Shown piece by piece: positions 3,389-38,663 of a DNA stretch of 38,663 bases. The stretch's first letter is position 1, and each line of letters opens with the position of its first letter. Source of the DNA: a virus; IMG/VR virus record IMGVR_UViG_3300009545_000642, positions 1 to 38,663 of that record. One strand, 5' to 3'. A program made the position numbers and the translations under genes. The notes under the pieces are model-generated. The model did not search any database and was not told the DNA's origin. It saw only the letters and a list, made by a program, of their open reading frames with translations.

Positions 3389-6046
3389 TCAGTCGTCCGG
3401 GGACATGCGGAAGATCCAGCAGCGCACGGTGGCCGGTCCGGTCGTGCGAATGGCGCTGCGGACGGCGCGGCTGGATTCGAGGAACTTGTGGCGCTTGCTG
3501 GTCGGCAGGTGTTCGCGCAGCTCCGCCAAGGTCGGCACGTCACGCCAACGCTCGGTCGCCATTTCCAGCCATTCGTGGATGTTGACCGCGATCAGGCTCT
3601 TGTCGGCGCTGTGGTTGAGGTACGGGCGCTCGCCTCGGCCGTTCAGTTCGTGGAAGCGCTCCCAGAAACTGACGACTACCTCATGGTCGGAAGTGATCAC
3701 CTTCTGCCGTTCTTCGGTCATGGTGGCCAGTTGCTGCAGGGTCGCCTCGCGGTAAGGGGCGACGCCCGGCACGACCAGTTCCAGCGCCTCGGCCATGGCC
3801 ATCAGCTGCGCATGATTCTTCGCCAAACGCACGCTCTTTACCTTCGGGTTGTCCAGCAGCTGGCGTTCGTACACGGGCATGCGCTCGGTGAAGCACGCCA
3901 TGACCTTGGCTTCGGCGCGCGCGGCGGCGATAACGAAATAGCTCAGCTCGTCGGCGGTCATCGCATTCAAGAGGTCCGCCTTGCGCTTGCCTTCGTCGGA
4001 GTGGCCCTCGCGGGTCATGTACACATGGCAGATGCGCTGCATCACCGCGTCATCGGCTTTCACAGGACGGTTCTGTTCGATCACGATGGCCGCGCGGAAG
4101 GGCGGTTCGTAGGTGTCGTTGCCCACGCTTTTGACGCCGGTCGTGCGGGTGCTGCGGCCGTTGAATAGCGATTTCAGTTCGTCGAAATCGAACTTGACGG
4201 TTTTGGTGGACGTCTCGCCGCGGTCGCCTTCCATCAACACGACCGGTAGGTTGGCCACCTGCACGAAGGTGCGAGCGCGGCCCGCCGGCGTGGCCTTGGC
4301 CGGGTCGAAGCCTTCGTAGGTCGGACGCCCGAGCAGGCGATTGAGGAACATCACCAGGGAGGTCTTGCCCGAACCGCCTTCACCAACCATCTCGAAGAAC
4401 GGAAAGCTTTCCTGTACGGCACGTACCTGTTCGGCAAACAGCGATGCAAACCAGAAGGTCAGCGCGACCATGCCCTTGGGGCCGTAGACCTCGAACAGCA
4501 GTTTCGGCCACGATTGATTGAAGCGGTTGGCGTCGGTGTGGATGCGGTGATGCACCGAGCTGGTGGTCTTGATGTTCGAGCGCTTATCCAGCTCGAAGTA
4601 ATCCTCGTCGTTGATCTCGATCATGCGGCCGTCCTTGATCGCGACTTCGCCGAACACGTAGGCGCCGTGCTCCTTGGAGTAGCCGATGAAATCAATGGTC
4701 TCCACGTGCTTGAGGCGCGACAGGCGCTCGCCGTAGGTGCGGGTCAGCTGCTCCTTGGTCCCCATCCATGACGCGCCCGACATGATCGACAGCAAGCGCA
4801 CATCGAATTGCGAGGCGGTGGCGACGTGTTCTGGTTTGAAGGCGGCCTTTACCGTCTTCTGCGCGGGCGCGGTGACGCGGAAGAAGTACTGCGATTCCTC
4901 GGTGACCGCGTTGCGCTGGAAGTACAGCGGCACGGGATGGCAGGGGGCGAGCAGATCGATGGCGCCGGCCTGCTGCAACGCCTTGTCGCGGCGCTCCTCC
5001 TCGTCCAGCTCGTCGGCCTTCTCCTCCAACGCCTGCATGGCCTTGTCGTAGCGTGCTTCGTTGAGCGCGTACCAATACAGCTTGTCGCTGAAATCCAGCG
5101 GGAAGCTCTTGTAGCCCTTGCGCTTGTAGATCAGGCGCGCCTTCTCCGCGACGGAGCCGGCGATCACCAGGGCGCCCTCGTGGCGATACTCGTCCAGGTG
5201 CGTGGCGGTCAGCCGGTCGCGCTGGTACGCCTCGTTCCAGTCAAGCTTGCGATCTTCGGAGTGTTGGGGAATAACGGCGGCGCCGGCCATCCAGGCCTCC
5301 TGACGGGCGCGTTCCACCCAGCGCTGGATGTATTCCAGCCCGGCGGCGTCGCCATCGAGCGCCCACACCAGACGCGGTCGCCGGGCGCCTTCGGGGAACA
5401 GCTCCGCCAGCGTGTAGTTGGGAAAATTGTTGGTGGACATCGCCGAGATGGCCGGGATGCCGGCGAGGCACAGCGCGATGGCGTCGAAGATGCCTTCAAC
5501 GATCCATAGTTCCTTGATGTCAGCCAGCTCGATGAGCGTGGCCGGTGGTACCCAGGCGCGACCCCGATAGGACTTGCCCGGCTGAAAGCGGGCTTTCTTC
5601 TTGCCGAAGCGGGACGGCTGATCGATCAGGCGCTCCCAGTACGCACCGCCGGGCAACGCGAAGCGCACGGTGGCGGTGCTGATATTGAGGTCGCGGTCGT
5701 GGAACCATTCCTGCGTGTAGGCGCCCTTGAGCTTCTCGATGGCGAAGCCCCGCGCATGGATCAGGTACGCGTCGGCAGCGGCCAGGGGTGCCTCTTTGGT
5801 GCTGGGATAGCGATCCGACCAGGACTGGAACAGATCCTCGTAGAGGTCTTTGGCATAGCCTTCCCAGCGGCATTTGTTGATGCGTCCGCAGCGCACCACC
5901 CACGGCGCAGGGGCGTGGGCATACAGCTCCTTCTTGCCACATTGTGGGCAGGTGCCCTCCTGTAGCCAGCGGCCGTCGGTGGTCTCTTTGAGGCCGAAAT
6001 CGAGCTGCAGCTGTCGGCGGATGTCGGCGAGCAGGTCGTAGTTCAC
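3389..6046 (-). CDS. phage primase/helicase (zinc finger, TOPRIM, P-loop ATPase)
   Basis: 885-aa replication protein, the largest early gene. An N-terminal zinc finger (C33-x2-C36 ... C53-x5-C59) is followed by a TOPRIM primase core (WIVEGIFDAIAL with E184; WALDGDAAG with D231/D233) and a C-terminal P-loop ATPase (GEGGSGKTS, 555-563), the architecture of phage and satellite primase-helicases that start replication. It takes the place of P2 gpA, so replication may be primase-driven and not P2-type rolling circle (inference). The start is the GTG at 6046: it overlaps the upstream stop (GTGA) and has GGAGG about 7 nt upstream. A start at 6136 would run deep into the preceding gene. Confidence 0.9.
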   Translation of the reverse strand: MNYDLLADIRRQLQLDFGLKETTDGRWLQEGTCPQCGKKELYAHAPAPWVVRCGRINKCRWEGYAKDLYEDLFQSWSDRYPSTKEAPLAAADAYLIHARGFAIEKLKGAYTQEWFHDRDLNISTATVRFALPGGAYWERLIDQPSRFGKKKARFQPGKSYRGRAWVPPATLIELADIKELWIVEGIFDAIALCLAGIPAISAMSTNNFPNYTLAELFPEGARRPRLVWALDGDAAGLEYIQRWVERARQEAWMAGAAVIPQHSEDRKLDWNEAYQRDRLTATHLDEYRHEGALVIAGSVAEKARLIYKRKGYKSFPLDFSDKLYWYALNEARYDKAMQALEEKADELDEEERRDKALQQAGAIDLLAPCHPVPLYFQRNAVTEESQYFFRVTAPAQKTVKAAFKPEHVATASQFDVRLLSIMSGASWMGTKEQLTRTYGERLSRLKHVETIDFIGYSKEHGAYVFGEVAIKDGRMIEINDEDYFELDKRSNIKTTSSVHHRIHTDANRFNQSWPKLLFEVYGPKGMVALTFWFASLFAEQVRAVQESFPFFEMVGEGGSGKTSLVMFLNRLLGRPTYEGFDPAKATPAGRARTFVQVANLPVVLMEGDRGETSTKTVKFDFDELKSLFNGRSTRTTGVKSVGNDTYEPPFRAAIVIEQNRPVKADDAVMQRICHVYMTREGHSDEGKRKADLLNAMTADELSYFVIAAARAEAKVMACFTERMPVYERQLLDNPKVKSVRLAKNHAQLMAMAEALELVVPGVAPYREATLQQLATMTEERQKVITSDHEVVVSFWERFHELNGRGERPYLNHSADKSLIAVNIHEWLEMATERWRDVPTLAELREHLPTSKRHKFLESSRAVRSAIRTTGPATVRCWIFRMSPDD

Positions 6047-6345
6047 GACTGCGCCTCCGCGGTGTTGCCGGCGATGGGATGCCAGAGCATGCCGGCGGGG
6101 CCGCACGCGGCGTCCTGACGGCGCATGACATCGCACGCGATGCCCAGGTACTCAGTCTCGCCGTCAGCAAGGTCGAGCGCGTGTTCCTCACCGCGGCTCG
6201 CGGTCACCGGTGCGCAGTGCGGCGGAAGGGTGCACAGGTGCACGGTATCGGCGAACTGCTGGTGGAACAGGCAGGTGACGCAGTGGATGACGTCCGCGCT
6301 TATACGCGGCGACCGAGGAAGATTCATGAGACAAGCCGTGTCCAT
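6043..6345 (-). CDS. hypothetical early phage protein
   Basis: Up to 100 aa, coupled to the primase by a 4-nt GTGA overlap. Contains several Cys and His residues (IHCVTCLFH and a later CTLPPHC), which could make a small metal-binding site. Two ATG starts are possible (6345 or 6327) and neither has a convincing ribosome-binding site. No family is recognised. Confidence 0.6.
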   Translation of the reverse strand: MDTACLMNLPRSPRISADVIHCVTCLFHQQFADTVHLCTLPPHCAPVTASRGEEHALDLADGETEYLGIACDVMRRQDAACGPAGMLWHPIAGNTAEAQS

Positions 6346-9391: not shown

Positions 9392-12208
9392 TCAATCCTC
9401 GTCACTAAAGGCGGAGCGTGCGCGTACCTGCTTGCTGCGCTCGTGGCGGGCCATGGCGTCGGCGACCTGGCGGCGCACTACGTCCGGATCGTTGCCGCGA
9501 GCGTCCACGTGCATCGTGACCTGGTCGCCCTGCATGACCACGGTCTTCGGTGGACGTACGCCTACCGGTGCGGTGGGGCTGACCAGACTGGCCCCCTGGC
9601 CTGATGGCTCGCCGCTCGCCAGCGGCGTGCGAGCGATGGCATCGGCGATCTTGTGGGCCTTCTCCTGGTCATCGCCGGTAATCCAGTCGATAGGCGTGGT
9701 GCCCGGTTGCGTCACCGGACTGTTCTGCCCCAGATGCCGAATGCGATCGATCAACTCGCGGACCGCGCCGAGCTTCTCGGCGATCCAGTCGAGCGTCTTG
9801 CGCGCGGCGTTCTCCACGCTCTGCCACATCTCGGCGAACCAGGCCTTGACCGGCTCCCAATGCACCACCACCCAGCCCGCCGCGGTGCCGATGGCTTCGC
9901 CGAGCGCTACGAACATCTGCACGCCGAAGGTGGCGGCCTGCACCACGCCGCGGATCGCCGCGCCCACCAGCTGCCCGAACGCCACGCCGGCCGCACGGGC
10001 GCTGGTCATCTGCTCCTGGGTGGCCTGCATGGGCTCCAGCAGCTGCGTGATCCAGCGCCACACGCTGACCAGGCAACCGACGATCACGTCGAAGGCGGGC
10101 TTAAGCGGCGCGAGCGCGCGGCCGATGTCGGCGAACACCGGCCCCACCGCTTGGCCGATCCCTTCCCACACCCCGGCGAACCAGGCGGAGATCGGTTGCC
10201 AGTGGCGACGCACGGCGAGCGCCGCGACGATGACTACGGCGATGAGCGCGGCGACCGGCAGGCTCACGCCGGTGATCGCCAGCATCGCCGCCCGGGCGCC
10301 GGTGGCGAGTGAGGGGAAGAGGCGCCCGAGCATCGGCAGGCGCGACAGCAGCCCGCCTTCGCCGCCGAGTGCGCCGAGGCGCAAGCCGCCCAAGCGCATC
10401 GCATAACGCAGCAGCGCGAACTGCCCGAGCAAGCCGCCCAGCGCGACCATCAGGCTACCCACCGTGGCCAGCAGCACGCCCGCACTGCCGGCGACCACCC
10501 CCATGCCCTTGGCCAGCATCGGGTGACGCTGCGACCAGGTATTCACCCCGCGCAGCACGCCGACCAGCTTGCCGAGACCCGCCACGTACAGCGGCAGCAA
10601 CTGCTCCCCCAACTCGCGATAGAGGTCCGATTTGCGGGCCAGCAGCTCGGCTTCCTGGCCGGCAGCGTTCTGGCCGGCCAGGTTGTACAGCGCATCGACG
10701 CCGTAGGCCTTGGGTGCCGCAGCCAGGTGCTTGGCGATGTTGGCGCGCTCCATGAACAGCGACGCGAACAGGTCGCCGCCCTTGCGGCCCGAGAACAGCG
10801 CGTTGATCTTGCTCACCACTTGCTGGTCGGAGAGCTGGCCGTCCGGGTTGAGCTTCGGGATGACGCGCGTCATCAAGTACTCGAACGGGTTGCTCCGATA
10901 GAGGTCGCCCTCTTTCAGTGCATCGGGCAGCAGTTTCTTGAGGTGGCCCGTCTTCTCATGGACTTCGATGGCGCCGGGTTTGAGCAGACCCAGCTGGAAC
11001 AGCTCATCGGCGGACTGCCGGGTGGATCGGCCGGCCGCCCAATTCTGGTACGCGGTGGCGAGACCCGTGCCGGCGCGGTGACCACCCATTTCCTGCACGG
11101 TATGCAGCAGCCCAAAGAAGAACGACTGATCGTCCAACTGCTTGGCGGCCACGCCGCCGGTCTTGATCATGTTGAGCAGGTCTTCGGACTTCACCAAGCC
11201 GCCCGAGGCGACGTAGGCCTGCGTGGCGAAGTCCAGCACGCGCTTCAAACTTTCCGGGCTCTTGGCGGCGCCGCGCAGTTCGGCCACCTTGAGCAGGTCC
11301 ATGAACATCGTTTCGGCCGTCGCGCCGTGGCCCTCACCGTGACCGCCCTGGGCCATCACGGTTTCGATGCCGAACTTCATCCGCGCCAGGTACGGCGTAA
11401 CCGCCTCCGCTTCGTGCATGTCGCGCAGCACGCTATAGGACTCTTTCAGTAGCTTGAGCGTTTCGGTCGCGCTCGTCCCCATGATGTCCTGGGCGCGGGC
11501 GAACTTCACCGCATCGGTCACCATGGCATCGCCCACGCCCATCGCGCGCAGCTGCGCCACCTGCATCGACCAGGCCTTCGCCTCGTCAATGGTCGGGCTG
11601 ATCGCGCCGAGTACGTGCTTGCCCGTCTCGCGAGTGGCATAGCCGCCGACGGTGAGGTGCGCGGCCGTCGCCGAGCTGCGCTCGAAGCTCTGTCGTGCCG
11701 CGGCCATCTTTTGCTGCTGCTGGGTGAGCGCGCCGAGTTTCTTCTGCTGTTCGCCGAGCTGGGCGTTCGTCGCGGCGATGTCGTCGCGTAGCCGCCGTTC
11801 GTGGCCGGCCAGGTTGCGCGTATGGATGCCGGCGGCGCCCAGGCCGTCGCGCAGGGATTGCAGGCGGCGGACATTGGCCTGGTACTGCACGCCCAGCGCG
11901 TCGGCCTGGCGCTTCGCCGCGGCGAACTCCCGGGTCTGCTGCCGGGTCGGGTTCGTGGTGCTGGCAAGGGCGCGCCCCAGCTCGGTGGCGCGTTGGCGCG
12001 CCGCCGCTAGCTGGGTGCCCAGGGCCTGAGTGCCTGCCTTGAGCTGGCGGAAGCCCTTCAAGTCGTCCTGTGCCTTCTGCAGGTCCTTGAGGCGCTGGCG
12101 AGTCTCGCGCAGTGCCTTGGACGTGGCGGCGGAACTGCCGGCGATGCCGCGCAAGGGCGCGGTCACCTTATCGATCATGTTCAAAAGGACACTGAGTTTC
12201 AGATCCAC
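9392..12208 (-). CDS. T: tail tape measure protein T
   Basis: 938 aa, sets tail length and is injected with DNA. The N-terminal 180 residues are heptad-rich coiled coil (KALRETRQRLKDLQKAQDDL). Central Gly/Ala-rich hydrophobic segments lie around residues 565-660 (GMGVVAGSAGVLLATVGSLM; VAALIAVVIVAALAV). The C-terminal part contains W-rich repeats as in phage tail tape measure TP901/P2 families. GTG start at 12208 with GAGGA 6 nt upstream, just after the E' stop. Length is slightly above P2 gpT (815 aa), implying a somewhat longer tail. Confidence 0.93.
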   Translation of the reverse strand: MDLKLSVLLNMIDKVTAPLRGIAGSSAATSKALRETRQRLKDLQKAQDDLKGFRQLKAGTQALGTQLAAARQRATELGRALASTTNPTRQQTREFAAAKRQADALGVQYQANVRRLQSLRDGLGAAGIHTRNLAGHERRLRDDIAATNAQLGEQQKKLGALTQQQQKMAAARQSFERSSATAAHLTVGGYATRETGKHVLGAISPTIDEAKAWSMQVAQLRAMGVGDAMVTDAVKFARAQDIMGTSATETLKLLKESYSVLRDMHEAEAVTPYLARMKFGIETVMAQGGHGEGHGATAETMFMDLLKVAELRGAAKSPESLKRVLDFATQAYVASGGLVKSEDLLNMIKTGGVAAKQLDDQSFFFGLLHTVQEMGGHRAGTGLATAYQNWAAGRSTRQSADELFQLGLLKPGAIEVHEKTGHLKKLLPDALKEGDLYRSNPFEYLMTRVIPKLNPDGQLSDQQVVSKINALFSGRKGGDLFASLFMERANIAKHLAAAPKAYGVDALYNLAGQNAAGQEAELLARKSDLYRELGEQLLPLYVAGLGKLVGVLRGVNTWSQRHPMLAKGMGVVAGSAGVLLATVGSLMVALGGLLGQFALLRYAMRLGGLRLGALGGEGGLLSRLPMLGRLFPSLATGARAAMLAITGVSLPVAALIAVVIVAALAVRRHWQPISAWFAGVWEGIGQAVGPVFADIGRALAPLKPAFDVIVGCLVSVWRWITQLLEPMQATQEQMTSARAAGVAFGQLVGAAIRGVVQAATFGVQMFVALGEAIGTAAGWVVVHWEPVKAWFAEMWQSVENAARKTLDWIAEKLGAVRELIDRIRHLGQNSPVTQPGTTPIDWITGDDQEKAHKIADAIARTPLASGEPSGQGASLVSPTAPVGVRPPKTVVMQGDQVTMHVDARGNDPDVVRRQVADAMARHERSKQVRARSAFSDED

Positions 12209-14382: not shown

Positions 14383-14925
14383 TTAGGCCTCGGAGGTGGC
14401 GGGGAGGGTGTCGGTCGGTGCCGGAGCGTCCGGCCAGGCCACGGTGTGCGGGAAGCCCGCCTGCTGCGGCACATCGCGCAGCGCCTGGGCATAGGCCGCC
14501 AGCGCCGACGCCTCGGCGTCGGTCAGCGTGGTCGGCTGGGCGTAGGTGGTTTGCAGCACGTGGCGCTGCAGGGCATCGGTGATCGGGGCGAGCAAGGCAT
14601 CGCGCTGGGCGCGCAGGCGCGCGGCGATCTGCTCGGTGGTCGGCGGCGGCGGATCCGCGAGCGTGGGCGCGCCATCGCGGACGACGATCCGTTTGCCGCG
14701 GCTCTGGCCTTCCAGCAGCGCGCGGTAGGCGTCCTCGCTTAGGACGACCAGGTCACTGGCCGGCGGCAGCGTGCAGTGCGGATTGGCCTGCTCGATCAGC
14801 GGACCATCGGCGAGCGTGTCATCGCCGTCCGGTGTCCAGTCGGGATCGCGGACCAGCACCGTGCGCGGACCATGCACGGCGTCGCAATAGAAGCCGCCGT
14901 GCACGATGTCGTAGAAGTAGGCCAT
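14383..14925 (-). CDS. G: tail fibre assembly-like protein G
   Basis: 180 aa. The C-terminal half has the pattern of phage tail fibre assembly proteins: a helical QIAARLRAQRDALLAPITD segment followed by YAQALRDVPQQAGFPHTVAWP. The N-terminal part (DPDWTPDGDD) resembles the bacterial-virus chaperone opening. Position between fibre H and sheath FI supports it. ATG directly follows the H stop (TGAATG). Confidence 0.8.
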   Translation of the reverse strand: MAYFYDIVHGGFYCDAVHGPRTVLVRDPDWTPDGDDTLADGPLIEQANPHCTLPPASDLVVLSEDAYRALLEGQSRGKRIVVRDGAPTLADPPPPTTEQIAARLRAQRDALLAPITDALQRHVLQTTYAQPTTLTDAEASALAAYAQALRDVPQQAGFPHTVAWPDAPAPTDTLPATSEA

Positions 14926-20381: not shown

Positions 20382-20545
20382 GTGATGCCCTTTTCCCCAA
20401 TGTCTGTATTCGCAACCCGAGGCGGACCTTGTAGCTTCGGAGACTGAATTATCATGGCGGTCCATTCGTCGGCCATATAAGTGAAAGCATCAATGAAGTG
20501 CCGATTGATGAAGAGGTTGTCTGGATTTCGATTGCTGGCGAGCAT
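20372..20545 (-). CDS. small antisense ORF between the defence genes
   Basis: 57 aa on the opposite strand from both neighbours: convergent with the AbiJ-like gene (10-nt overlap at the 3' ends) and divergent from the SIR2-like gene. The ATG at 20545 has GGAG about 8 nt upstream, and the peptide (NPDNLFINRHFIDAFTYMAD, then EWTAMIIQSP) has natural protein composition, whereas the competing plus-strand frame is Arg/Lys-rich. Not recognised. It could be a small regulator or inhibitor of the defence pair, or the tail of a lost minus-strand gene. Confidence 0.38.
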   Translation of the reverse strand: MLASNRNPDNLFINRHFIDAFTYMADEWTAMIIQSPKLQGPPRVANTDIGEKGITQV

Positions 20546-20624
20546 GATGAAGCTCCGCCGGAAGCCGCAGGATGTTCTAGGTTTTATCAAAGTTCAATTT
20601 CCAACACACAGTCAGTCATCCAAA

Positions 20625-21797
20625 ATGCCCTCTTCAACTCACCCTGGTTACCGAATCTATCTTCTCGGCGCGGGCTTTTCGCGGTCTGCGGGGCTGCCGG
20701 TGGCAAGCGAGCTTTTCCCTCTAGTTCGTGCAGCCATTGAAGAGAAACACGGTACCGATACGAAGTTCCATCGTGATCTTAGAAACTATCTCAGCTATTG
20801 TGCTGACTGTGGCGTATCGGGTCAGCAAGAGGAGTCTCTAGATCTCGAAGTGTTTATGTCGTACCTCGATATCGAGCATTACCTTGGCCTTAGGGGTGGT
20901 GACACTTGGAGTCGAGAAGGAAACGAATCTCAGCTCATGATTAAGAGAGCTATCGGGGAGGTGATCCATCGCCATACGCCCCCAGGCGATAAGCTTCCGG
21001 ACATCTACTATCGTTTTGCAGAACAGTTGTCGGTAAACGACACCGTGCTTACTCTTAACTATGATCTCGTTTTAGAGCGAGCTCTGGCCCATGTGGGCAA
21101 GGCGTTTCGGCGCTATCCAACTCGATTCAAGTCATTGTCCGCGCATGGAGGCGTTGTCGATTCTGACATCGAGGAACTGGTGCTATTGAAGTTGCACGGA
21201 TCCCTGGACTGGTTCGATGATCGGCAGTACCTTGCTTTGAAGGACTCGGTCAGGAACGTGGCTCCCGGACATCTACCGCATCACGATGTGTTTCGAGATC
21301 CTTCGCGTTTTGAAGTTGCTCCGCTCGTTGATGGCTTGTTGCCTGCGGAAGACGCACTTCGACACATTCATTTCATTAACCGTGTTGATGAATACTACCG
21401 AGATCCGCAAGGGTTGAGCGCGCCATTCATCCTGTCGCCGTCGCACGTCAAGTTTGTATATACGGAGCCACTGATGAGCTTTTGGTACGGATGGGGGCGC
21501 GCCGGCGGGTACAACACTGGCGTATCTGTCATAGGTTTCTCACTGCCGACCCATGACGAGTACATCCGCATTTGTCTGCATCAGATACTTTCCAACTATG
21601 GTTCATGGTGGGACGAGCGCCTTCTTAGTGTGCTCAAGGACTATGTGCGCTTTGTCGACTATAAGCCTACTGATGAGTATAGGCTGGCATACATGGATCG
21701 TTATTGCTTTGCGGACCCTGAGCGCTCACGCTTCTTCTTTGATGGCTTTGGGCTAGAAGCAATCGACTTCCTCTTTCATCAGCCGCGGAATGTCTAG
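20625..21797 (+). CDS. SIR2-like protein, putative NADase effector
   Basis: 390 aa with a SIR2-like (SIR2_2-type) domain: YLLGAGFSRSAGLP (13-25, NAD-binding loop), TLNYD (143-147, N145 the catalytic Asn position), KLHGSLDW (189-196, H191 the catalytic His position) and VIGFSLPTHDEY (302-313). In bacterial defence systems such as Thoeris, DSR and SIR2-HerA, related domains deplete NAD+ on phage sensing. All key residues are kept, so activity is plausible. The frame is open to 20481, but ATG 20625 places the Rossmann motif at the usual distance; there is no clear Shine-Dalgarno. Lower GC than the tail genes. No separate sensor domain is obvious, so the trigger may be the AbiJ-like neighbour or the phage itself. 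Confidence 0.8.
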   Translation: MPSSTHPGYRIYLLGAGFSRSAGLPVASELFPLVRAAIEEKHGTDTKFHRDLRNYLSYCADCGVSGQQEESLDLEVFMSYLDIEHYLGLRGGDTWSREGNESQLMIKRAIGEVIHRHTPPGDKLPDIYYRFAEQLSVNDTVLTLNYDLVLERALAHVGKAFRRYPTRFKSLSAHGGVVDSDIEELVLLKLHGSLDWFDDRQYLALKDSVRNVAPGHLPHHDVFRDPSRFEVAPLVDGLLPAEDALRHIHFINRVDEYYRDPQGLSAPFILSPSHVKFVYTEPLMSFWYGWGRAGGYNTGVSVIGFSLPTHDEYIRICLHQILSNYGSWWDERLLSVLKDYVRFVDYKPTDEYRLAYMDRYCFADPERSRFFFDGFGLEAIDFLFHQPRNV

Positions 21798-21972
21798 CAA
21801 TACATTTGTCCTGAAGGAGGACATCCGTTTCCTTATCTGACTACGAGTACACGATTGAGATCGTAACAACCTCAAGGCGTGACTGCGGGAAATACGGTGA
21901 GGACATGATTCTCTTGGATCGATGGCGAGGGCGAGCCATCACCCGAAAGGAGCTGATGGCGAGGGCGCCTTA
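21791..21972 (+). pseudogene. short frame-offset ORF after the SIR2-like gene
   Basis: An ATG overlapping the SIR2 stop starts a 15-codon frame (SNTFVLKEDIRF...) ending at TGA 21838-21840. The +1 frame then continues open for 44 codons with natural composition (DYEYTIEIVTTSRRDCGKYG through ELMARAP) to TAG at 21971-21973. An AAGGAGG lies at 21813-21819 but no ATG/GTG/TTG follows it in the long frame. Removing one C from TTCC near 21832 would fuse both into about 60 aa. Either a disrupted small gene or, less likely, a +1 frameshifted one. Confidence 0.35.
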
Positions 21973-22428
21973 GCCGGTAAGGTATTCGAGGAGAAGGTTG
22001 CGGACCCGTTCTCTGTCAGCGCTGGTGAAGCCGAGCAACGCTCGCCGTGGATAGCGCACTTCTGGCGCGCTTGGCGTGGCGCGGTCACGCAGACCATCCT
22101 GATGGACGCGCGCGACGCTCGCCACGCGGCCCGCGAAACCCACCTCGGCGGCATCGGCGGTGCTGGCGATACGCAGCCACTTTGCGGTGCGCAACTTGGT
22201 GAACATCGCCGCCCGACGGATAGACCCGGACCGCTCGCGCAACCGTGGTTTGCGCGGTACGAAGGGGGCGCCCTCGGCATCGTGCTGAGAGGCAATGCGT
22301 TGCTGTTGGGAGTGCCGCAGCTCGCGAGCGATAGTGACGGCTAGGCGACGACGTGCCGGCGCGTCGAGCTTGGTCAGTAGCGTGCCGGCCCATCTTTCCA
22401 GCTGTCGAAGCGGATCGGTACTCACCAC
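21970..22428 (-). CDS. S: tail completion/virion morphogenesis protein S
   Basis: 152 aa, P2 gpS-type (phage_tail_S / virion morphogenesis family), needed to finish and attach tails. LRQLERWAGTLLTKLDAPAR, the LRHSQQQRIASQHDAEGAPF region with its FVPRK motif, and YPRRALLGFTSADRERV are typical. Overlaps the R stop. Last gene of the lysis/completion block before the cargo island. Confidence 0.9.
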   Translation of the reverse strand: MVSTDPLRQLERWAGTLLTKLDAPARRRLAVTIARELRHSQQQRIASQHDAEGAPFVPRKPRLRERSGSIRRAAMFTKLRTAKWLRIASTADAAEVGFAGRVASVARVHQDGLRDRATPSAPEVRYPRRALLGFTSADRERVRNLLLEYLTG

Positions 22429-29863: not shown

Positions 29864-30873
29864 TGAGCAAGCGCAAGCGCCAGGCGGTGCCAGCTGCGAT
29901 CCCGAAAGACACGTCCGCCGGCGGCCGCTTCGAGGCCTTCACCTTCGGTGATCCGGAACCGATCGACAGGGCCAACCTGCTGGATTACGTGCAGGTGTGG
30001 CACAACAGCCGATGGTACGAGCCGCCGGTGAGCCTGACGGGACTCGCCAACATGTTGCAGATTGCGCCGCACCACTCGTCGGCCATCTATGTGAAGAGGA
30101 ATCTGCTGGTCTCCGCGTTCCAGCCGTCGCGTTACCTGTCAGTGGCGGAGTTCGAGGCCTTTGCCATGGACTACCTCACCTTTGGCCAAGCGTATCTGGA
30201 ACGCGAGGAGGCGCTATCCGGCAAGCTGCTGCGGGCCAAGCACACGCCATCGTTGTTTACCCGGCGAGGGGTGGAAGAGGGCGCGTTCTGGTTTGTGCCG
30301 CCAAACGGTCAAGCCTTCCAGTTCGAACGGCCGGTGGTCCAGATGAAGGCGCCGGATGTGCGGCAAGAGGTGTACGGCATCCCTGAATACCTGAGCGCGC
30401 TGCATGCTGCGCAGCTCAATCGCTCGGCCACGCTGTTCCGTCGCAAGTACTACGACAACGGATCACACGCGGGCTTCATCCTCTACATGACGGATCCGGC
30501 GCAGAACCCTGACGACGTCGACAACCTGCGGAAAGCTCTAAAAGGGGCGAAGGGGCCGGGTAACTTCCGGAACCTCTTCATGTATGCGCCGAGCGGCAAG
30601 AAGGACGGCCTGCAGCTGATTCCGATCAGCGAGGTGGCGGCGAAGGATGACTTTGCGTCGATCAAGAATGCGAGCCGGGATGACATCCTCGCGGCGCACC
30701 GCGTGCCGCCTCAGCTTTTGGGGATGATTCCGACCAATGCTGGTGGGTTCGGTGATGTGGGGAAGGCGAGGGATGTATTCAAAGAGAATGAGATCGATCC
30801 GCTGATCGCTCGCATGGTTGGATTGAATGATCAGTTGAGTGCCAAAGTTTTTAGTTTCATGGGTGCTATGTAA
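29863..30873 (+). CDS. Q: portal protein Q
   Basis: 336 aa, P2 gpQ type (PBSX-family) portal. PPVSLTGLANMLQIAPHHSS, SAxxxKRNxL-like AIYVKRNLLVSAFQPSRYLS and VPPQLLGMIPTNAGGFGDV are typical. ATG shares a base with the P stop and has GGAG 8 nt upstream. Confidence 0.95.
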   Translation: MSKRKRQAVPAAIPKDTSAGGRFEAFTFGDPEPIDRANLLDYVQVWHNSRWYEPPVSLTGLANMLQIAPHHSSAIYVKRNLLVSAFQPSRYLSVAEFEAFAMDYLTFGQAYLEREEALSGKLLRAKHTPSLFTRRGVEEGAFWFVPPNGQAFQFERPVVQMKAPDVRQEVYGIPEYLSALHAAQLNRSATLFRRKYYDNGSHAGFILYMTDPAQNPDDVDNLRKALKGAKGPGNFRNLFMYAPSGKKDGLQLIPISEVAAKDDFASIKNASRDDILAAHRVPPQLLGMIPTNAGGFGDVGKARDVFKENEIDPLIARMVGLNDQLSAKVFSFMGAM

Positions 30874-30947: not shown

Positions 30948-31406
30948 CTAGCGCTCAGAAAGGCGTTTCTTCAATGTGATCTCTGTTGCCTCTGCGCCGT
31001 ACATAGAATCAGGTGGATAGTCGTTGTTCGCTGCCGCAGGGTACTCGCCGATCAGGGCATTCGGGTCGTCATCCGAATACCTCACCTCCCATCGTCGCCC
31101 CGTAAGCATCTCCTCTCGAACGAATATTGGCATCGGCCATTCCTTGCGGTCCCAGCTAGGCAGCGTTCCTAATTCCACCCACCTACCTGTCTGCAAGAAC
31201 AAATCACCAAAACGCGCGACCAAAATGGTGTCATCCCGGCTCAGAGTTAAAGAGCCGACCTCCGGAAGTTCTTTCCATTCAGCCCAGAAATAACCTAGAA
31301 GGACGCCGCGCCTGGATGCACGAGCGATGAGGCCGATTGCGAAGCCTCCGTCCTGCAACGGGATGCCGAATACAGTTCCCTCAGTGAGTACCTTATTTTT
31401 GGCCAC
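30948..31406 (-). CDS. immunity protein, Imm26-like
   Basis: 152 aa. The opening GTVFGIPLQDGGFAIGLIAR, then GVLLGYFWAEWKELP, resembles the Imm26 family (GxxFxIPLxDGxYxxGxI-like) of polymorphic-toxin immunity proteins. GTG start overlaps the end of the RHS gene by 14 nt, so toxin and antidote are translated together. Expected to neutralise the C-terminal nuclease domain of the RHS protein in the cytoplasm. Position directly after the toxin tip is the usual arrangement. Confidence 0.75.
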   Translation of the reverse strand: MAKNKVLTEGTVFGIPLQDGGFAIGLIARASRRGVLLGYFWAEWKELPEVGSLTLSRDDTILVARFGDLFLQTGRWVELGTLPSWDRKEWPMPIFVREEMLTGRRWEVRYSDDDPNALIGEYPAAANNDYPPDSMYGAEATEITLKKRLSER

Positions 31407-34400
31407 TTGCTGCCCTTATCAAATAGTCGTCCGCTGCTTGTAGGTAGCTGCTGCGATTTGGGTTCCGCAATCCTATCGGTCGTACATAGTTAAGGGGGGC
31501 ATCGTAAGCCTCGTATGCCGATTGCTCCAAACCGCGTTGCTCATTATAAACGTCAGTTCGAGCTAGGACATCAAAAGTGTACTTGCCAAGCACTGGGTCT
31601 CGGGCGTGCTCTGCTTGGCGCCTCGCTAGATCGTTGGTTCTTCCCGTCCGGACTGTCTCTCCGGTGGCGGGGTCGATAAGCCTGTATACCCCTCCGCGAT
31701 TCTGATTCGCCGGATTGACGCAAGGTTTGCCGGCTAGTTCTTCCTGGACGCGGATGTCGGCCTCAGAACGGGGGATCTGATTGGCTTGGTTTGGGCCCAA
31801 TCGGAGACCAAATGCTTCGATCAATCTCTCTCGTTCTAAGGGATCGACGAGATCCAGCTCCTCCGCCTGTTGCAGGCCAAGGGTATCGGTGGCGCCGAGT
31901 GGTTGGCTGCTGACATAGGCGTAGCTTGCAACGCCACCCTGAAGTCCGATCGGATCAGTCTGAGAATACCGGGAGGTTGAGGGCTCGTAGTATCGGTTGA
32001 TGTTGTAAGCAAGCTTGCTCTCTGCGTCATAGTACTGACCAGGAAGGCGCAGATTGAATACGTAGCCGCTTGCCGACGTGGGTTGTTTTTCACCGAACGC
32101 ATTGCCCTGGTAGGGCCACTGCCACTGAACCGATCCTGCGTCATCCGTTATGACTCGCGGCGTGCCTAGACCATCCGCGTATACGTAGCTCACCTTCGCT
32201 GTCGTTCCCAAAGCATCGATAGCTGCGATTGGAACGTCGCCCATCCAGACATAGTCGCGGTTCGTTGTTCCGTACTCACTCAGTAGCTGACTGCCTTCGT
32301 CATAAGCGAAGCGCAGATTGACGGTTTGAGGTGCCGTTGCCGCCTTTGCGACGCGCTCTCCAAGAGCATTGTAGGTATAGCTTGCGACGGTTTGGTTGGC
32401 TTCTTGTACGACAGTCAATCGATTTCGGCTGTTGTAGCCATAGCCAAACGTGTCGCCACTAGCGGAGTTGCCTGTGGTGTTCCCGTTGGCGTCGAATGAG
32501 CGTGCACTATTGCCTATGGTGGTCAGCCAATGCGTTCCGGTCTGATATCCATAAGTGCCGGTGGCGAGGCCGTTGCCGGACTTGCTGAGCCGATCGCCCG
32601 TCTTGTTGTAGGTGTAGGCTTCGATAACGGTGCCTGTGGCATCGTTGATCGAGCCAAGGCGATAGAGCGGATCGTAGTGGTAGGTCTCTGTGGCCGGGTT
32701 AGCGCCAGGCGCATTTCCCAAGGCCGTGATGTTCCCCATCGCATCACGCGCAAAATGGAGGTTCATCGCTGAGCTGGTGACGTCGGACAGTCGGTAGTCG
32801 CTGTCATAGGAGCGAATAACCGTCTGTCCGTTACCTAGCGTGTAGCTCGCGATCGGTCCGAAGGGAAGGTATACGACACTGGTCACTAGATTGACCGTGC
32901 CGCTTGCACCTGGCGGCCGCGCGCTGACCGCGTTGATACGGCCGGCGATATCGCGGCCATACTGGATCATCGCGCCATCGGGCGTATTGATGCTGGCTAG
33001 GCGACCGCCAGGTGTGTACGTGTAATTGACCGTATCAACGGTGGTGCCTTGGGTCTGGCGTTTTTGCACCACATTACCCCGCGCGTCATAGCAGTAAACC
33101 GTGCTGACGGCAGTTTCTACAATGCTGGTTAGACGGCCTATGGGGTTTGATCCTACGCATCCGGTAACGCTGTCGGACTCGTCGTAGCGATAGCTGATGT
33201 TAGATGCGCTATCAGGATATGTGGTTGCGGTAATGCGGTTAAGCGCGTCATAAGTACGTTGGCTTGCTACAGCCTTTGCATCAGTGTCTTGGATGCGATT
33301 GCCGGCTGCGTCGTAGACGTAGCTGGAAGCGCCGGAATCCGGGCTCGTAAGTCCTTTGAGCACTCCCAGGCCATCATACGCGTAAGACGTCACTAGGCTG
33401 TTCGGATCAGTGACCTTTAGGATTCGATCAAGACTGTCGTACGAAAATGATGTTGCGCTGTTCTTGGTTGCTGTGTCGGTGCCATTGTAGTTGCGCGTCA
33501 CGCTGGCAATGCGATTAAGTGCGTCGTAAGTCGTGTGCGTGATGATGCTAAGGCGGTCCTTGGCATCGGTCAGGTTGCCATTCAGATCATAGGTGAAGAT
33601 GATGGCTCGGCTCTGCGCATCGAGCTCCTGCGCCAACTGACCAAGAGCATTGAATTTGCGTGTCAGCGTGCGGATTGGCGTGCTGGACCCATTCGCATAG
33701 ATGTTCTCGGCCGTTCGATTGTCCGCCGCGTCAAGCGTGTACTGGATATAGTTGCCAAGAGCATCGGTGATCTTGACCAGCCTGTGCGCGTCGTCGTAGC
33801 CGTACGACGTTACTACGCCATCCGGATCGGTTACGGATGTGACGGAACCGACCTTGTCGTAGCCGTAACTTGTCTTTGCGCCTCCCACTGTCTGCGTATC
33901 GATCCAGCCACGTGACGTGTACGTAAGGTCATTTGCGTTGCCATTGGCATCTATGATCCGCGTTGGGCGTCCCGCGCCGTCATATGAGGCAATGGTGAGG
34001 GCGTGGCCGAGCGCATCGATAATCTGATGAATGTCGCCGGTTTGGTAGCAGGCTGCTCCGGGAGTGCCACAGTTCTGCGCACTGCTGGATTGATAATAGG
34101 TGTAGTTCGTTATGTTGCCGCGAGGATCAGTTTCGCTGAGCAGCAGTCCTACCGACGTGCAGCCATTGCTCCCGGTTGTGTCGCAGTAGCGATATGTTTG
34201 TTGGCGGACGCCTACGGGTGCGGAAGCAGCGCTACCGCAGACGTAACCTGTTGAACCCGAGACCGCTGGGTCAGCTTCGCAAGACGCGGTCACTTGTCCG
34301 CGGTTGTTGTAAGCGAAACTTTGATAGGCGACTAGCGCTCCAGTCGAGTCCAGTGTGCTGCGCGTCAAGGGGTTGCGAAGAACGGCGTCCCACGTGGTGT

Positions 34401-35967
34401 TGGTCGTGCGCTGGCTAGCGGTTCCCTTCGCGTCGATACGCTGCAGTTCTAAGCCAGATACGCTGTAATTGGTCGACGTGACGTTGCTATTGAGGTCGGT
34501 AAGCGTCGCTGGCCAGCCATTGGTGTCGTAGCTGATAGATTTCCACGGCATTGTGCAGCCCGTACCGCACGAAGTGGAAATGCCCGCAATCTTGTTTTCG
34601 CCCAGATAGTTCTGGAACGTTAGTGTTGACGATGTCCCTAGGGGTGTTTTGATCGTTGCAGGGATCGCGCCATTGATCGTAGAACCCCCGTAAGTAATGG
34701 TGCTGGCAGCGGCACCACCAGCAAAGCTCGATGAGATAGCGCGACCGGAGGTGTCATATCCGGTGTTTTCATAGCGCACATTCTTTTCATCGATGACGCC
34801 GGTTAAGGCATTCGGGAAATTAGTGTTCGACGTTAGGTTGGCTTCGTTATAGACAAACTGCCGGACGCTATTGTCTGGAAACGTCGCAGTGGAGAGATTG
34901 CCGATCGCATCGTAGGTGTAACCTAGGGAGCCGCCTTCGGGGAGATTGACTGTGTTGATGCGGGCACTGCTGTCGTATACGAAGTTTAGCGACCGTCCAT
35001 GAGGGTCTGTGACGGTAAGGAGCAAACCTGGCTTGGGCGCAGTCGATGCAGGCGTACTGACTGTGCTGTAGGTCAGTGTCGTGGTCTGACCATCACGGTC
35101 AGTGATCGAAAGGAGTTGGCCGCTAGGTGAGTATTGTTCAAACTCATGGCCGTAAGCCATGAAGACGGTGTACCCCGTGGGATGGCCCCCCGCGTCGTCC
35201 TGTTCAACGATGGTATCAATGACCCCAGTGTCTGCCGTCCAGGCACCACTCACCTTCTGAAATTGCTCCCGAGTTCCATCAGGGCGATAGAGCACTAGCC
35301 AGTTACCGCCGCCCGATGCGGTGGATTGGAGTGGTTCCAGAGACCGATCAAACGAATGGCGCCACTGGACGCCAACGTTAGTTTGCTTGATCGCAATGTG
35401 GCTATTGTAAAAGCGCCGGAATGTTAGCCACGCAGAGCCGCTGTAATCGGTGTCTTGCTGAAACTTGTTCCCCGTGGACGTATTGATGGGGTCAAGCTGC
35501 TCAGCGCTGGGGCATGTGTTTACGATGTGCGTCTTAGATTCATGCTTCGGCGACCCATTGCTTCCCCAGCAACCTGCTCCACCCAGGTTCTTGAAATCGT
35601 CATACATGTGCGCGGTAGCTTCGACGTAGAACGAGTTCGAGCCATCCGTGTAACTGACGACGGCGCCAATGCCCTCCAACGTTCCGGAGTTGGCCGAGCG
35701 ATAGTTGATGGTGACGTTGCAGTTCGTAGACGTTGGTGAACACGCCGCAAGCATCCTGCCTTGGAGATATGCGGCGGCCTCACCTTCGCTCTCGAAGGTT
35801 TCGAGGTCACCGAAGTAGTTGATCTTGTATGGGGCGCCGTAATAGGAGCCAGCATGCGCCTCCATCGGGAGCGCTAGTACCGCCATCTGAGCCATGGCGG
35901 TGAATGCCAAGAGTCGTAACGAGGAGCGCCGGAAGCCGCGTCCCGCCAAAGCACCTATCCGTGACAT
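31393..35967 (-). CDS. RHS-repeat polymorphic toxin with GIY-YIG-like nuclease tip
   Basis: 1524 aa. Starts at ATG 35967 (CGGAG upstream); Sec-type signal peptide ending AHA-GSY near residue 40. After a unique N-terminal domain and a DUF6531-like entry (PINTSTGNKFQQDTDYSGSA), dozens of YD/RHS repeats (YxxxGxxxxxxD) build the cage. The core ends with RYYEPSTSRYSQTDPIGLQG and DTLGL (about 1365). The variable tip (1425-1524) reads GGVYRL ... RTGRTNDLARRQAEH ... RGLEQ, a GIY-YIG (Tox-URI-like) pattern with catalytic Arg and metal-ligand Glu. Lower GC than phage genes. Lies between portal and the presumed cos, so it is phage cargo; no T6SS or VgrG gene is near. Confidence 0.85.
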   Translation of the reverse strand: MSRIGALAGRGFRRSSLRLLAFTAMAQMAVLALPMEAHAGSYYGAPYKINYFGDLETFESEGEAAAYLQGRMLAACSPTSTNCNVTINYRSANSGTLEGIGAVVSYTDGSNSFYVEATAHMYDDFKNLGGAGCWGSNGSPKHESKTHIVNTCPSAEQLDPINTSTGNKFQQDTDYSGSAWLTFRRFYNSHIAIKQTNVGVQWRHSFDRSLEPLQSTASGGGNWLVLYRPDGTREQFQKVSGAWTADTGVIDTIVEQDDAGGHPTGYTVFMAYGHEFEQYSPSGQLLSITDRDGQTTTLTYSTVSTPASTAPKPGLLLTVTDPHGRSLNFVYDSSARINTVNLPEGGSLGYTYDAIGNLSTATFPDNSVRQFVYNEANLTSNTNFPNALTGVIDEKNVRYENTGYDTSGRAISSSFAGGAAASTITYGGSTINGAIPATIKTPLGTSSTLTFQNYLGENKIAGISTSCGTGCTMPWKSISYDTNGWPATLTDLNSNVTSTNYSVSGLELQRIDAKGTASQRTTNTTWDAVLRNPLTRSTLDSTGALVAYQSFAYNNRGQVTASCEADPAVSGSTGYVCGSAASAPVGVRQQTYRYCDTTGSNGCTSVGLLLSETDPRGNITNYTYYQSSSAQNCGTPGAACYQTGDIHQIIDALGHALTIASYDGAGRPTRIIDANGNANDLTYTSRGWIDTQTVGGAKTSYGYDKVGSVTSVTDPDGVVTSYGYDDAHRLVKITDALGNYIQYTLDAADNRTAENIYANGSSTPIRTLTRKFNALGQLAQELDAQSRAIIFTYDLNGNLTDAKDRLSIITHTTYDALNRIASVTRNYNGTDTATKNSATSFSYDSLDRILKVTDPNSLVTSYAYDGLGVLKGLTSPDSGASSYVYDAAGNRIQDTDAKAVASQRTYDALNRITATTYPDSASNISYRYDESDSVTGCVGSNPIGRLTSIVETAVSTVYCYDARGNVVQKRQTQGTTVDTVNYTYTPGGRLASINTPDGAMIQYGRDIAGRINAVSARPPGASGTVNLVTSVVYLPFGPIASYTLGNGQTVIRSYDSDYRLSDVTSSAMNLHFARDAMGNITALGNAPGANPATETYHYDPLYRLGSINDATGTVIEAYTYNKTGDRLSKSGNGLATGTYGYQTGTHWLTTIGNSARSFDANGNTTGNSASGDTFGYGYNSRNRLTVVQEANQTVASYTYNALGERVAKAATAPQTVNLRFAYDEGSQLLSEYGTTNRDYVWMGDVPIAAIDALGTTAKVSYVYADGLGTPRVITDDAGSVQWQWPYQGNAFGEKQPTSASGYVFNLRLPGQYYDAESKLAYNINRYYEPSTSRYSQTDPIGLQGGVASYAYVSSQPLGATDTLGLQQAEELDLVDPLERERLIEAFGLRLGPNQANQIPRSEADIRVQEELAGKPCVNPANQNRGGVYRLIDPATGETVRTGRTNDLARRQAEHARDPVLGKYTFDVLARTDVYNEQRGLEQSAYEAYDAPLNYVRPIGLRNPNRSSYLQAADDYLIRAASGQK

Positions 35968-36597
35968 GCTTTTCTCCGAGTTATAAAAAAGGGCCAGCAG
36001 CCGCAGATGGCTTCCGACCCTTCGTTGACTTGAGTTTTTTCCGACGGTTACGCCGTCGCATACAGCGCTCTTGATGCGCATGGTTCCATCCGTGGATTGT
36101 CGCCATTCAAGTAGCGAGCTCTATCGATGATATACGCGTGCAATGTCTCTACGGCTACAGCAGAGGAGGCCAATTTTTCTCGATCTACTGTAGGCGTAGG
36201 ACTACAGCAAGAATTTGCGCGAGTTATGGCGTAGCTCAATGGCTATTTTCAGATAATGGTCGCAAATATTTGCGGGCTCGCCTGTCTATCGCGGACGAGG
36301 TCACGCCGTGATCATGGAGCGCCATGCATCAGCGTGGATGGTTTCGGCTGTACCAGACATATTCGACGGCGATGTGTCGGTCGTGGCACCTCGGGGGTGA
36401 TCAAAAAGTAGCCAGTTCTGCAGCGTTTCAGAGCTGGCGCGCGCGGTCGTCCCCCCTCCTCGCCTGCGCGCTTCGCCCCCCACTTTTAGTGCAGTTGATG
36501 CGATGGTGCCGCGCCTTAGCTTATGGGGCGCTTCGGCCGATTTTAAGGGCGTGCTACGTGATGCAGATTGATGCGCGCCAGGGCTGACCGATGGCCT
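35968..36597. other. intergenic region upstream of the RHS gene
   Basis: About 630 nt without a convincing gene. It should hold the RHS promoter (not resolved), an inverted repeat CTGTAG-N8-CTACAG (36188-36207), a small hairpin GACGG-CGTAA-CCGTC near 36040-36055 and the cos-like sequence at 36446-36464. Open frames of 60-90 codons here have unnatural composition and no ribosome-binding sites. Confidence 0.5.
36446..36464 (-). other. candidate cos packaging site
   Basis: Minus-strand GGCGAGGAGGGGGGACGAC. From memory, the P2/P4 cohesive end is GGCGAGGCGGGGAAAGCAC; 14 of 19 positions agree, including the first seven. The location after Q and the cargo, in a non-coding GC-rich stretch, is where a P2-type genome is expected to have cos. 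If correct, virion DNA ends here and the RHS pair is packaged next to Q. Confidence 0.5.
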
Positions 36598-37197
36598 TCA
36601 CGGGCGATCAAAGGCTAAGCACAGAATCTCGCGGCCGCCATGGGCAACGCGCATTTGCCCGCGGTACTGCGGAGCTTTGGAGCAGGCGAGAAGGTGGCGC
36701 GTCCTGGTCTTGCCAGGCAACGGAAGGCCACGGCGGAATGCTGCGAGCTGCGTATCGGTGAGGTTGATGGCCAGTACCTCCGTGCCGTGGCCGTAGTCCT
36801 TCGCTGCGCCGATGTCGAGGAGGTGGTCAATTACATGCCATAGCTCGCGCACCTCGGCCGAGTTCCCGTTGGGAACCTGCTCGTATATGGCGTGGCGGAC
36901 GGCAGGCGCCACTTTCTGGTGCAGCCAACGAGCTACGTCGTCAGCGAGGCGGTAACCGGCAACGCTCACCACTGACCAAAGCCCGTCGTCGTCTGTCCAC
37001 GGCGTGCCCGCAGTCTCCTGTGTCGAAAGGCGTAAACGCTGCGGGTGAGCCGAGCCCACAAAAGCCACGGCATCCTCGAGCGGCGGTCGGCCCAATAAGG
37101 CGCATAGGTCGGATAAGTCGTACCAGGCCGTCCCATCGATCAGTTGCACCCGGAGCGGGTGCTGGTTGTACGCGAAAGCCAGCCGGCCAACGTCCAT
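36598..37197 (-). CDS. BRO-N/antirepressor-like phage protein
   Basis: 199 aa. The first about 100 residues follow the BRO-N domain pattern: LRVQLIDGTAWYDLSDLCALLG, then WSVVSVAGYRLADDVARWLHQKVAPAVRH (the usual SExGLYxLxxxSxKPxAKxFxxWVxxxVLPxIR region). Such proteins are DNA-binding phage regulators or antirepressors. The C-terminal half (LWHVIDHLLDIGAA; LAFRRGLPLPG-like) is unrecognised. ATG with AGGGG upstream. Leftward promoter must lie in the GTAAC-rich region, hinting that this protein or another phage factor binds there. Confidence 0.65.
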   Translation of the reverse strand: MDVGRLAFAYNQHPLRVQLIDGTAWYDLSDLCALLGRPPLEDAVAFVGSAHPQRLRLSTQETAGTPWTDDDGLWSVVSVAGYRLADDVARWLHQKVAPAVRHAIYEQVPNGNSAEVRELWHVIDHLLDIGAAKDYGHGTEVLAINLTDTQLAAFRRGLPLPGKTRTRHLLACSKAPQYRGQMRVAHGGREILCLAFDRP

Positions 37198-37598
37198 GCA
37201 AACCCCTTTTTAAGGAAAGGCCATAGGCAGAGTGTAACGGTCTGCAGAATGGCCTGAAAACACAGGCTAAGCCATTGAGTTAAGGTCGAAATGAGGTTTG
37301 TAACAAACGCGTAACTAGGCGCAACAAGCGGCGTAACGCCCTGATTTATATAGATGGTATTGTTACTTCGTTCTTTGTAACAATGTTACTGGCTGTCACT
37401 CGGTTGTTACGATTGAAAATTGCTTAATTAATCAAATGAAATCAATAGCCTGTTATGACTCTCTCGGCTCCTGTTACGGACATTACGCTTTTCCGATGGG
37501 GGTGTTCCTTTTGGACTCCATATAAAGAATGGAGGGCATACCCACATTTCCTTGCGCTGTCGCGGTTGGCAAGGCATCCCTTCCTTGCCGACCAGACA
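37198..37598. promoter_or_regulatory. AT-rich regulatory region with nine GTAAC/GTTAC pentamers
   Basis: GTAAC at 37234, 37300, 37311, 37333 and 37377; GTTAC at 37362, 37385, 37406 and 37473. Spacings of 11, 22 and 21 bp among like-oriented copies follow the helical repeat, and ATTGTTAC / GTAACAAT (37359-37384) forms an 8-bp inverted repeat. About 0.5 copies would be expected by chance. A TATATA box lies in the middle (near 37346-37352). It could be a multi-site operator for the BRO-N gene or an iteron-type replication origin. Confidence 0.6.
37568..37589. terminator. hairpin downstream of the 68-aa gene
   Basis: GGCAAGG / CCTTGCC inverted repeat with an 8-nt loop, starting 10 nt beyond the stop of the leftward 68-aa gene. 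No T-run, so a weak terminator candidate only. Confidence 0.35.
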
Positions 37599-37805
37599 TC
37601 ACATCAAGGGTTGCCTAAGCGCTGCCTGCAGCTCCTCCAACTGCCCACGTAGTTGCATGGCCATCATGGTCATGAGCGTGTGGACATGGTCAGGAACGAC
37701 AACCCCGGCTTGAATGCCGGCCGCTAGGCTCGCGCCTAGCGTCTCAATGGCGTCCACGTGTTCCATCGCGCGGTCGAGGGTGACGATGATGCTGCTGTCT
37801 TTCAT
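37599..37805 (-). CDS. small phage protein, 68 aa
   Basis: Starts ATG 37805 with AGGAGT 7 nt upstream. Amphipathic helical protein (MEHVDAIETLGASLAAGIQA; MTMMAMQLRGQLEELQAAL), acidic and Met-rich at the end, probably a small oligomeric helix bundle. Not recognised. The longer open frame upstream has poor composition. Leftward, upstream of the GTAAC region and probably cotranscribed with nothing else. Confidence 0.6.
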   Translation of the reverse strand: MKDSSIIVTLDRAMEHVDAIETLGASLAAGIQAGVVVPDHVHTLMTMMAMQLRGQLEELQAALRQPLM

Positions 37806-38039
37806 GGTGCTACTCCTGCCAACAACGTTCCCCCCGTTCGTCGGTATCGGCAGGAGACGAGCGAAGGCGAGGGGATATCTGGCGATCCGCGAGGAGCTGG
37901 TGCATGTCATCGTAGAGACTGCCAATGCAAATGCACCTGCTATGGCGCTCTTCAATAGCAAACACCACGCTTAAGCCACTCATTATCGAGTTGCGCGGCT
38001 ACGTCACCTGATTGGACATTGGCGACAGGGGAATTACGC

Positions 38040-38663
38040 ATGGCGACGCCTCCCAATGCTCACGGCCAACAGACATTTCTTGTGAGGTCGTGGCAGGCCA
38101 TGATGGCCAAGCTTCATTTCGAGATCGATGAGTTCGACCGGACGCGCTTGATAGATCCCGACAGCACAATCCGAAGCTATCGTGCCCTCAACGTTGCCTG
38201 GACTGCTTGGCATATCCACGACTGGTTTTGGGAATGGGTCTGCGATAACTCGCCTGGCACTGTCATGGCGATCAATGCCCATCTCGCTACAAATTTGGTA
38301 GCGGACGCGAACGCCAAAACTAGGACTAAAAGGGAAGCAATGGCCAATTTTGGCGATGCCGTAGCTTCGAAATATCAGGACATCGCCCGATGTAGGACGA
38401 TTGCGACCGCAGCCAAGCACAGTAAGGCGGAAAGTAGACCTGATCCTACTCTGACTACCCGGGGTGTGTTTATTCTCAGTTTGGAGCCGATGCGAACTCT
38501 TCCGCTCACGGATCCCGTGCAGTATCACGACGTTCGTGTGTTTCACGCGGGTCAAGTGGTCGATGCCGACAGGGTATTCAAGGGCGCGGCAGCAAGTTGG
38601 GGGCAGTTCTTCAAGGCGGTCGGAGTGGGGTATCCGAAAATCGTAAACAACATTGCGACGTGA
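38040..38663 (+). CDS. hypothetical protein at the right end of the prophage
   Basis: 207 aa, not recognised. Starts ATG 38040 with AGGGGAA upstream; a TTG at 38019 is less likely. The first half contains an aromatic/His-rich helix (NVAWTAWHIHDWFWEWV), and the middle has an ARCRTIATAAKHSK segment; the pairing of WHxHxWxWE with a later AxxxKH resembles a recurrent but uncharacterised family of bacterial proteins (impression only). Lower GC than the tail genes and plus orientation, isolated at the presumed attR side, so probably cargo. The 234 nt before it hold no other gene. Confidence 0.6.
   Translation: MATPPNAHGQQTFLVRSWQAMMAKLHFEIDEFDRTRLIDPDSTIRSYRALNVAWTAWHIHDWFWEWVCDNSPGTVMAINAHLATNLVADANAKTRTKREAMANFGDAVASKYQDIARCRTIATAAKHSKAESRPDPTLTTRGVFILSLEPMRTLPLTDPVQYHDVRVFHAGQVVDADRVFKGAAASWGQFFKAVGVGYPKIVNNIAT

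Follow-up and report, generated by a model that had tools for sequence, protein, structure and literature searches.

The usual account of P2-like phages is rolling-circle replication from a nick site in gene A, gpA being the nicking enzyme of P2. The IMG/VR record studied here (the window, 38,663 nucleotides in all) is a P2-like prophage, but it gave no match to the gpA-family initiator (PF05840), so that an origin of the P2 gpA rolling-circle type is not indicated. Where, then, might such a phage start its replication, and what is the meaning of a dense cluster of GTAAC pentamers in a 401-bp gap between two of its genes?

Gene neighborhood and architecture of the GTAAC array

The window encodes an integrase (1-1308), RdgC, a TOPRIM primase-helicase, regulators of the Ogr and Arc types and the usual P2 late genes, along with RHS/Imm26 cargo. 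The gap that holds the array is flanked by a BRO-N-type gene on one side and by a small conserved gene on the other (Table 1). The cos-like segment was compared with the cos overhangs of P2 and Smp131, as given in the accessible text of PMC3931495. Between portal and cos (30948-36081), a gene for an RHS-repeat protein (1,562 aa) is followed by an Imm26 immunity-type gene; RHS genes related to it occur in loci L002, L005, L007, L008, and L022. A SIR2-like protein (438 aa, SIR2_2) and a 140-aa ORF on the opposite strand, located in the late region (20481-22344), are possible defense cargo.

Table 1. Coordinates of the array, its parts and the associated genes (window positions unless a locus is given)
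Feature	Position	Strand	Remarks
TOPRIM primase/P-loop helicase (phrog_1139)	3389-6136	-	Proposed initiator
cos-like GC-rich segment	36436-36501	no strand	Conserved in >20 P2-like relatives; GGCGAGGAGGGGGGA-like core (minus strand)
BRO-N-type protein gene	36598-37197	-	Similar to the primase C-terminal domain at residues 101-198; proposed second array ligand
Iteron array, proposed replication origin	37234-37486	no strand	~250 bp, 12 sites
Left outer iteron	37234-37238	+	66 bp before the inner row
Left inner row	37300-37337	+	GTAAC 37300, 37311, GCAAC 37322, GTAAC 37333; 11-bp steps
AT-rich center, candidate unwinding element	37338-37361	no strand	67% AT vs. 37% for the record
Right inner block	37359-37410		GTTAC 37362 (-), GTAAC 37377 (+), GTTAC 37385 (-), GTGAC-type 37395 (-), GTTAC 37406 (-)
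Spacer	37411-37472	no strand	Inner block to right outer pair, 67 bp
Right outer pair, 9 bp apart	37473-37486	-	GTTAC 37473, ATTAC 37482
Small gene, 68 aa	37599-37805	-	Adjoins the array in at least 11 relatives, 33-65% identity
Antirepressor-type N-domain with primase-like C-terminal domain	L038:16462-17379; L235:2509-3426; L226:347-1228
Nearly domain-only protein, primase-like C-terminal domain	L204:4503-4973

The initial annotation had reported nine exact GTAAC/GTTAC pentamers at 37234-37477, and all nine are indeed present (37234+, 37300+, 37311+, 37333+, 37362-, 37377+, 37385-, 37406-, and 37473-). In 5,000 dinucleotide shuffles of the 401-bp intergenic region, GTAAC occurred ~0.8 times on average and five times at most, compared to the nine copies observed; if any 5-mer may be picked post hoc, at least nine copies are reached in 1.4% of the shuffles. 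Steps of 11, 22, and 21 bp and an 8-bp inverted repeat (ATTGTTAC at 37359-37366 and GTAACAAT at 37377-37384, inside the right inner block) were likewise found as annotated. Orientation runs ++++-+---, and the two opposed blocks proposed are not cleanly separated.

Three additional copies with one mismatch, GCAAC at 37322, GTGAC at 37395 (-), and GTAAT at 37482 (-), occupy spots predicted by the layout, bringing the total to 12 GTAAC-type sites. We thus see a short iteron in many copies and both orientations, above chance, with two iteron sets placed around an AT-rich stretch, as in origins of the P4/PICI type. A 9-bp partner of the left outer iteron, present in relatives, is not recognizable in the window. 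The spacer on the right is AT-rich early on (37400-37459, ~70% AT), and the right outer pair is followed at 37489 by TTTTCCGATG, a flank common to many relatives. No Rfam family was found in 36400-38663.

The layout is conserved while the repeated word changes

Conservation in relatives had been set beforehand as the test on which the array should stand or fall. A terminase scan yielded 80 P2-like loci, many of which carry an array at the same spot, between cos and the small gene, with or without a BRO-N gene; that the array is kept favors a real element. The common geometry reads as a pair 9 bp apart, 65-67 bp, a row of ~11-bp steps, an AT-rich center, another row, 65-67 bp, and a second pair, the inverted block after the AT-rich stretch showing steps of 15, 8-9, 10, and 11 bp in most array phages. 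The same arrangement is seen in P2-like phages from Pseudomonas, Stenotrophomonas, Halomonas, and E. coli and from metagenomes, while the repeated word varies by phage: GTAAC (e.g., locus L040), GGTAAT (L010, L018, L039), TGTAAG (L038), GGCGAT (L041), TGTGA, CTGACA, GGAACA, or TGGAAG. Named phages with both the array and the same primase include Dobby, Sirocco, and the OQ658368 prophage (all of Pseudomonas), Smp131, Halomonas 4908, ESSI2 (TGTGA), UFJF_PfPro (CTGACA), clone 2F_1 (GTAAC), phi3 (GGAACA), and JFK (TGGAAG).

Among primase-bearing records that extend past the portal side (for L114, past the primase), 28 of 31 have the array, compared to none of five gpA-type records (G024, G025, G026, G042, and P2), although these records are related to each other and do not count as independent trials. 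The three primase carriers without an array are Mae-JY29, G049, and G064. The distance between array and primase gene is variable. Immediately 3′ of the primase gene in phi3 and JFK, the array is 1.8 kb 3′ of it in L114 (GGTAAG repeats at 14475-14760). In Dobby and Smp131 it is also 3′ of the primase on the circular map, kilobases off; most P2-like members have 4-6 kb between the two, and in the window they stand at opposite ends of the record. Two GTAAC clusters upstream of the primase (L113:7629-7740 and L114:7325-7436) were set aside as array candidates: GTAAC recurs every ~12 bp, apparently within an ORF that would encode a Val/Thr-rich stretch, and in both cases this looks more like repetition within a coding sequence than an origin.

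Spacing is a stronger test of the reality of the array than copy number. From L010 (GGTAAT) we derived a template of seven offsets, which was scanned with every pentamer over whole sequences. On the 38.7-kb window, the best placement was the array itself (GTTAC at 37473, 5/7), compared to scores of no more than 4 in 30 resampled genomes; when the nine sites of the window were placed at random, 5/7 was reached in none of 20,000 trials. Scores were higher still in Dobby (7/7), PfPro (7, TGACA), and ESSI2 (6, TGTGA), 2F1 (6), L041 (6, TCGCC), and L038 (6, TTACA), all six of which had their score matched in 0 of 20,000 random placements of their own sites. The best placement fell within the array in the window, Dobby, Smp131, ESSI2, PfPro, 2F1, L038, L039, L041, and L046. 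Generally, random placement of a phage's own sites reproduced the score 0-5 times in 20,000; the exceptions are phi3 and JFK, which differ in spacing and match the template poorly (927 and 336 of 20,000, respectively). In P4, the best placement was in the annotated ori (TGAAC at 9398, 5/7; random, 2/20,000), with matches at offsets -87, -77, -66, 0, and +10; half of the module therefore has the geometry of the P4 origin. The blind pentamer scan ranked P4 crr first.

The primase-helicase as candidate initiator

Only one window gene, that of the primase, is common to Dobby, Smp131, phi3, JFK, ESSI2, PfPro, and 2F1 and missing from P2. An informative pair is given by the Pseudomonas phages phi3 (L108) and JFK (L119), whose late proteins are 98-100% identical while their primases share 56% identity and their iteron words differ (GGAAC versus TGGAA). 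Other early genes differ as well, but it looks as if primase and iteron word had been exchanged together. With their early regions exchanged, the two phages constitute a natural swap pair for initiator specificity. Across the wider set, once general relatedness was taken into account, the motif covaried with the C-terminal domain of the primase only as a non-significant trend (partial Mantel p = 0.077).

We propose that the last ~100 aa of the primase may form the iteron-binding domain. The AlphaFold model of the C-terminal 216 aa (pLDDT 87.7) had one confident PDB match, the SCCmec helicase Cch (5dgk; prob 0.98, with a modest Foldseek E-value of 0.013); PDB sequence searches with the primase and its C-terminal profile returned no meaningful match. 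Cch is related to SaPI Rep, which reads a downstream iteron origin via its C-terminal domain (PMC7581432).

The motif cluster, its layout, the persistence of that layout under a changing word, and the association with the primase are direct observations. They lead us to consider the array as very probably the replication origin of a P2-like phage without gpA, in which the TOPRIM primase-helicase takes the place of gpA. It is best read as an iteron origin of the known P4/PICI kind, the new aspect being its presence as a variant in a gpA-less P2-like phage. The initial annotation had offered three options. The evidence favors one of them, a replication origin for the primase; the other two, an operator of the BRO-N gene and a complex near attR, fared less well.

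Alternative readings of the array

A purely regulatory reading, in which BRO-N or some other regulator occupies an operator for BRO-N and early transcription and replication is not involved, would suit an array that closely precedes the BRO-N start codon, the more so as the C terminus of BRO-N is similar to the C-terminal domain of the primase (hhalign prob 90.8). However, the array is not confined to BRO-N carriers: many relatives have array and cos with no BRO-N gene between them, L010, L014, L018, L024, L029, and L030 carry it between cos and the small gene, and in phi3 and JFK it lies behind the primase. In addition, no sigma-70-like promoter was found in 37190-37850, and the spacing matches the P4 ori. 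We therefore regard this as a very unlikely main role.

Even less probable is a complex for integration or excision, with arm-type sites for integrase or excisionase near attP/attR. Direct repeats at helical spacing are a typical feature of excisionase and arm sites, and the array of OQ658368 lies ~200 bp inside the annotated att, but only because attP is located between primase and origin on the circle. In Smp131, attP (30738-30783; PMC3931495) and the array (33055-33330) are 2.3 kb apart with genes between them. In phi3 and JFK, the primase gene separates int from the array, which in L114, too, lies beyond that gene; neither adjacency to attP nor a shared integrase type unites the array phages. 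We give an equally small chance to a centromere-like partition site or a packaging enhancer near cos. The array is indeed within 0.15-4 kb of cos in P2-like relatives; yet P2 has cos and no array, phi3 and JFK keep the array with the primase, and the array phages as a whole have no par genes in common.

Primase-like domains in antirepressor-type proteins

If the array is an origin, the BRO-N protein may still bind it, given the likeness between its C-terminal domain and that of the primase. Residues 101-198 matched the primase domain profile (E 1.2e-6), and 5,000 shuffled BRO-N C termini all scored below the real one. The AlphaFold model of BRO-N, built with two sequences, is unusable (pLDDT 40), though the order of secondary-structure elements in its C terminus agrees with the primase domain. 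Searches of viral and genome collections returned one BRO-N relative, on a contig that ends at the BRO-N start codon, before the array region. The primase C-terminal domain type is also found fused to other N-terminal domains, clearer examples of which are L038 (Pfam Bro-N), L235 (KilA-N), and L226 (P22_AR_N). All three, like the nearly domain-only protein of L204, are encoded separately from the primase, and the genes in L038, L226, and L235 lie on the portal side; in L038 and the window, the fusion or BRO-N gene is on the cos side of the array. In record G048 (L204/L205; 46,962 bp), the same 159-aa domain-only ORF occurs at 4692 and 40664, 35,972 bp apart, which suggests a redundant assembly of a ~36-kb genome or a tandem prophage.

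Antirepressor-type proteins (Bro-N, KilA-N, P22_AR_N) with a copy of the presumed origin-binding domain of the primase might act as initiator mimics beside the origin in some phages, a tentative idea that we lean slightly against. Such mimics could compete with the initiator for iteron sites and thereby restrain prophage replication in concert with the lysogeny switch, or they could obstruct the origins of incoming related phages; pressure of this kind could explain why the word changes with fixed spacing. A precedent for a protein borrowing origin specificity is given by the origin-directed nuclease Odn of phage ICP1 (PMC8263062). Similar to Odn, these would be non-initiator proteins with an initiator-like origin-binding domain; different from its nuclease domain, the partner domains here are of antirepressor types with no known nuclease activity.

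Proposed mechanism and comparison with known origins

A winged-helix-like C-terminal domain of the primase-helicase would bind the GTAAC iterons, and subunits on the two opposed half-sites would assemble helicase rings over the AT-rich center, where the DNA would open and theta-type replication begin. P4 alpha with ori/crr is described as working in this way, and so is SaPI Rep with its ori. In the circular phage, the origin would lie 3′ of the primase gene with attP between them; integration therefore parts initiator and origin to opposite ends of the prophage. Cumulative GC skew gave no consistent signal at the array across seven phages. We found no mention of such an origin in the accessible text of the Smp131 paper (PMC3931495) or in the literature searched, mostly not subscription titles.

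A branch of the Peduoviridae, comprising Citexvirus members such as Dobby, Smp131, phi3, and many prophages, appears to use a P4/PICI-like iteron origin. Its presence in P2-like phages would connect helper phages with the P4 and PICI satellites, and a rigid geometry with a changeable word offers a direct route to origins in uncharacterized prophages. The initiator/iteron pairs would amount to a set of natural specificity variants, and the putative initiator mimics point to conflict over, or control of, replication at these origins.

With P2, the phage shares the virion and late-gene family (Peduoviridae). In contrast with P2, whose origin is of the rolling-circle type with the nick site inside gene A, the window lacks gpA, and P2 lacks the array. 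The closer likeness is to ori and crr of P4, which have short iterons in both orientations, rows of 10-11 bp, and pairs 9-10 bp apart; crr, like the arrays of phi3 and JFK, is directly 3′ of the primase gene. P4 differs in its iteron, GGTGAACAG, and in the 4.7 kb between ori and crr, whereas here a single dyad-like module of ~250 bp combines both kinds of element, and the replicon is an entire P2-like phage. In PICI origins, two iteron sets flank an AT-rich stretch (PMC6092414, accessible text). Like those of PICIs and SaPIs, the origin proposed here has two iteron sets with an AT-rich middle. In PICIs and SaPIs it lies downstream of an initiator helicase (Pri-Rep or Rep) whose C-terminal domain recognizes the iterons (PMC6092414 and PMC7581432), a part that the primase-helicase may play here, from a variable distance on the circular map. 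Unlike in those systems, the proposed initiator is a TOPRIM primase-helicase fusion, and int, attP, and cargo genes separate it from the origin. The outer pairs at 65-67 bp, which the accessible text of the same two papers does not describe for PICI/SaPI origins, set the P2-like module apart.
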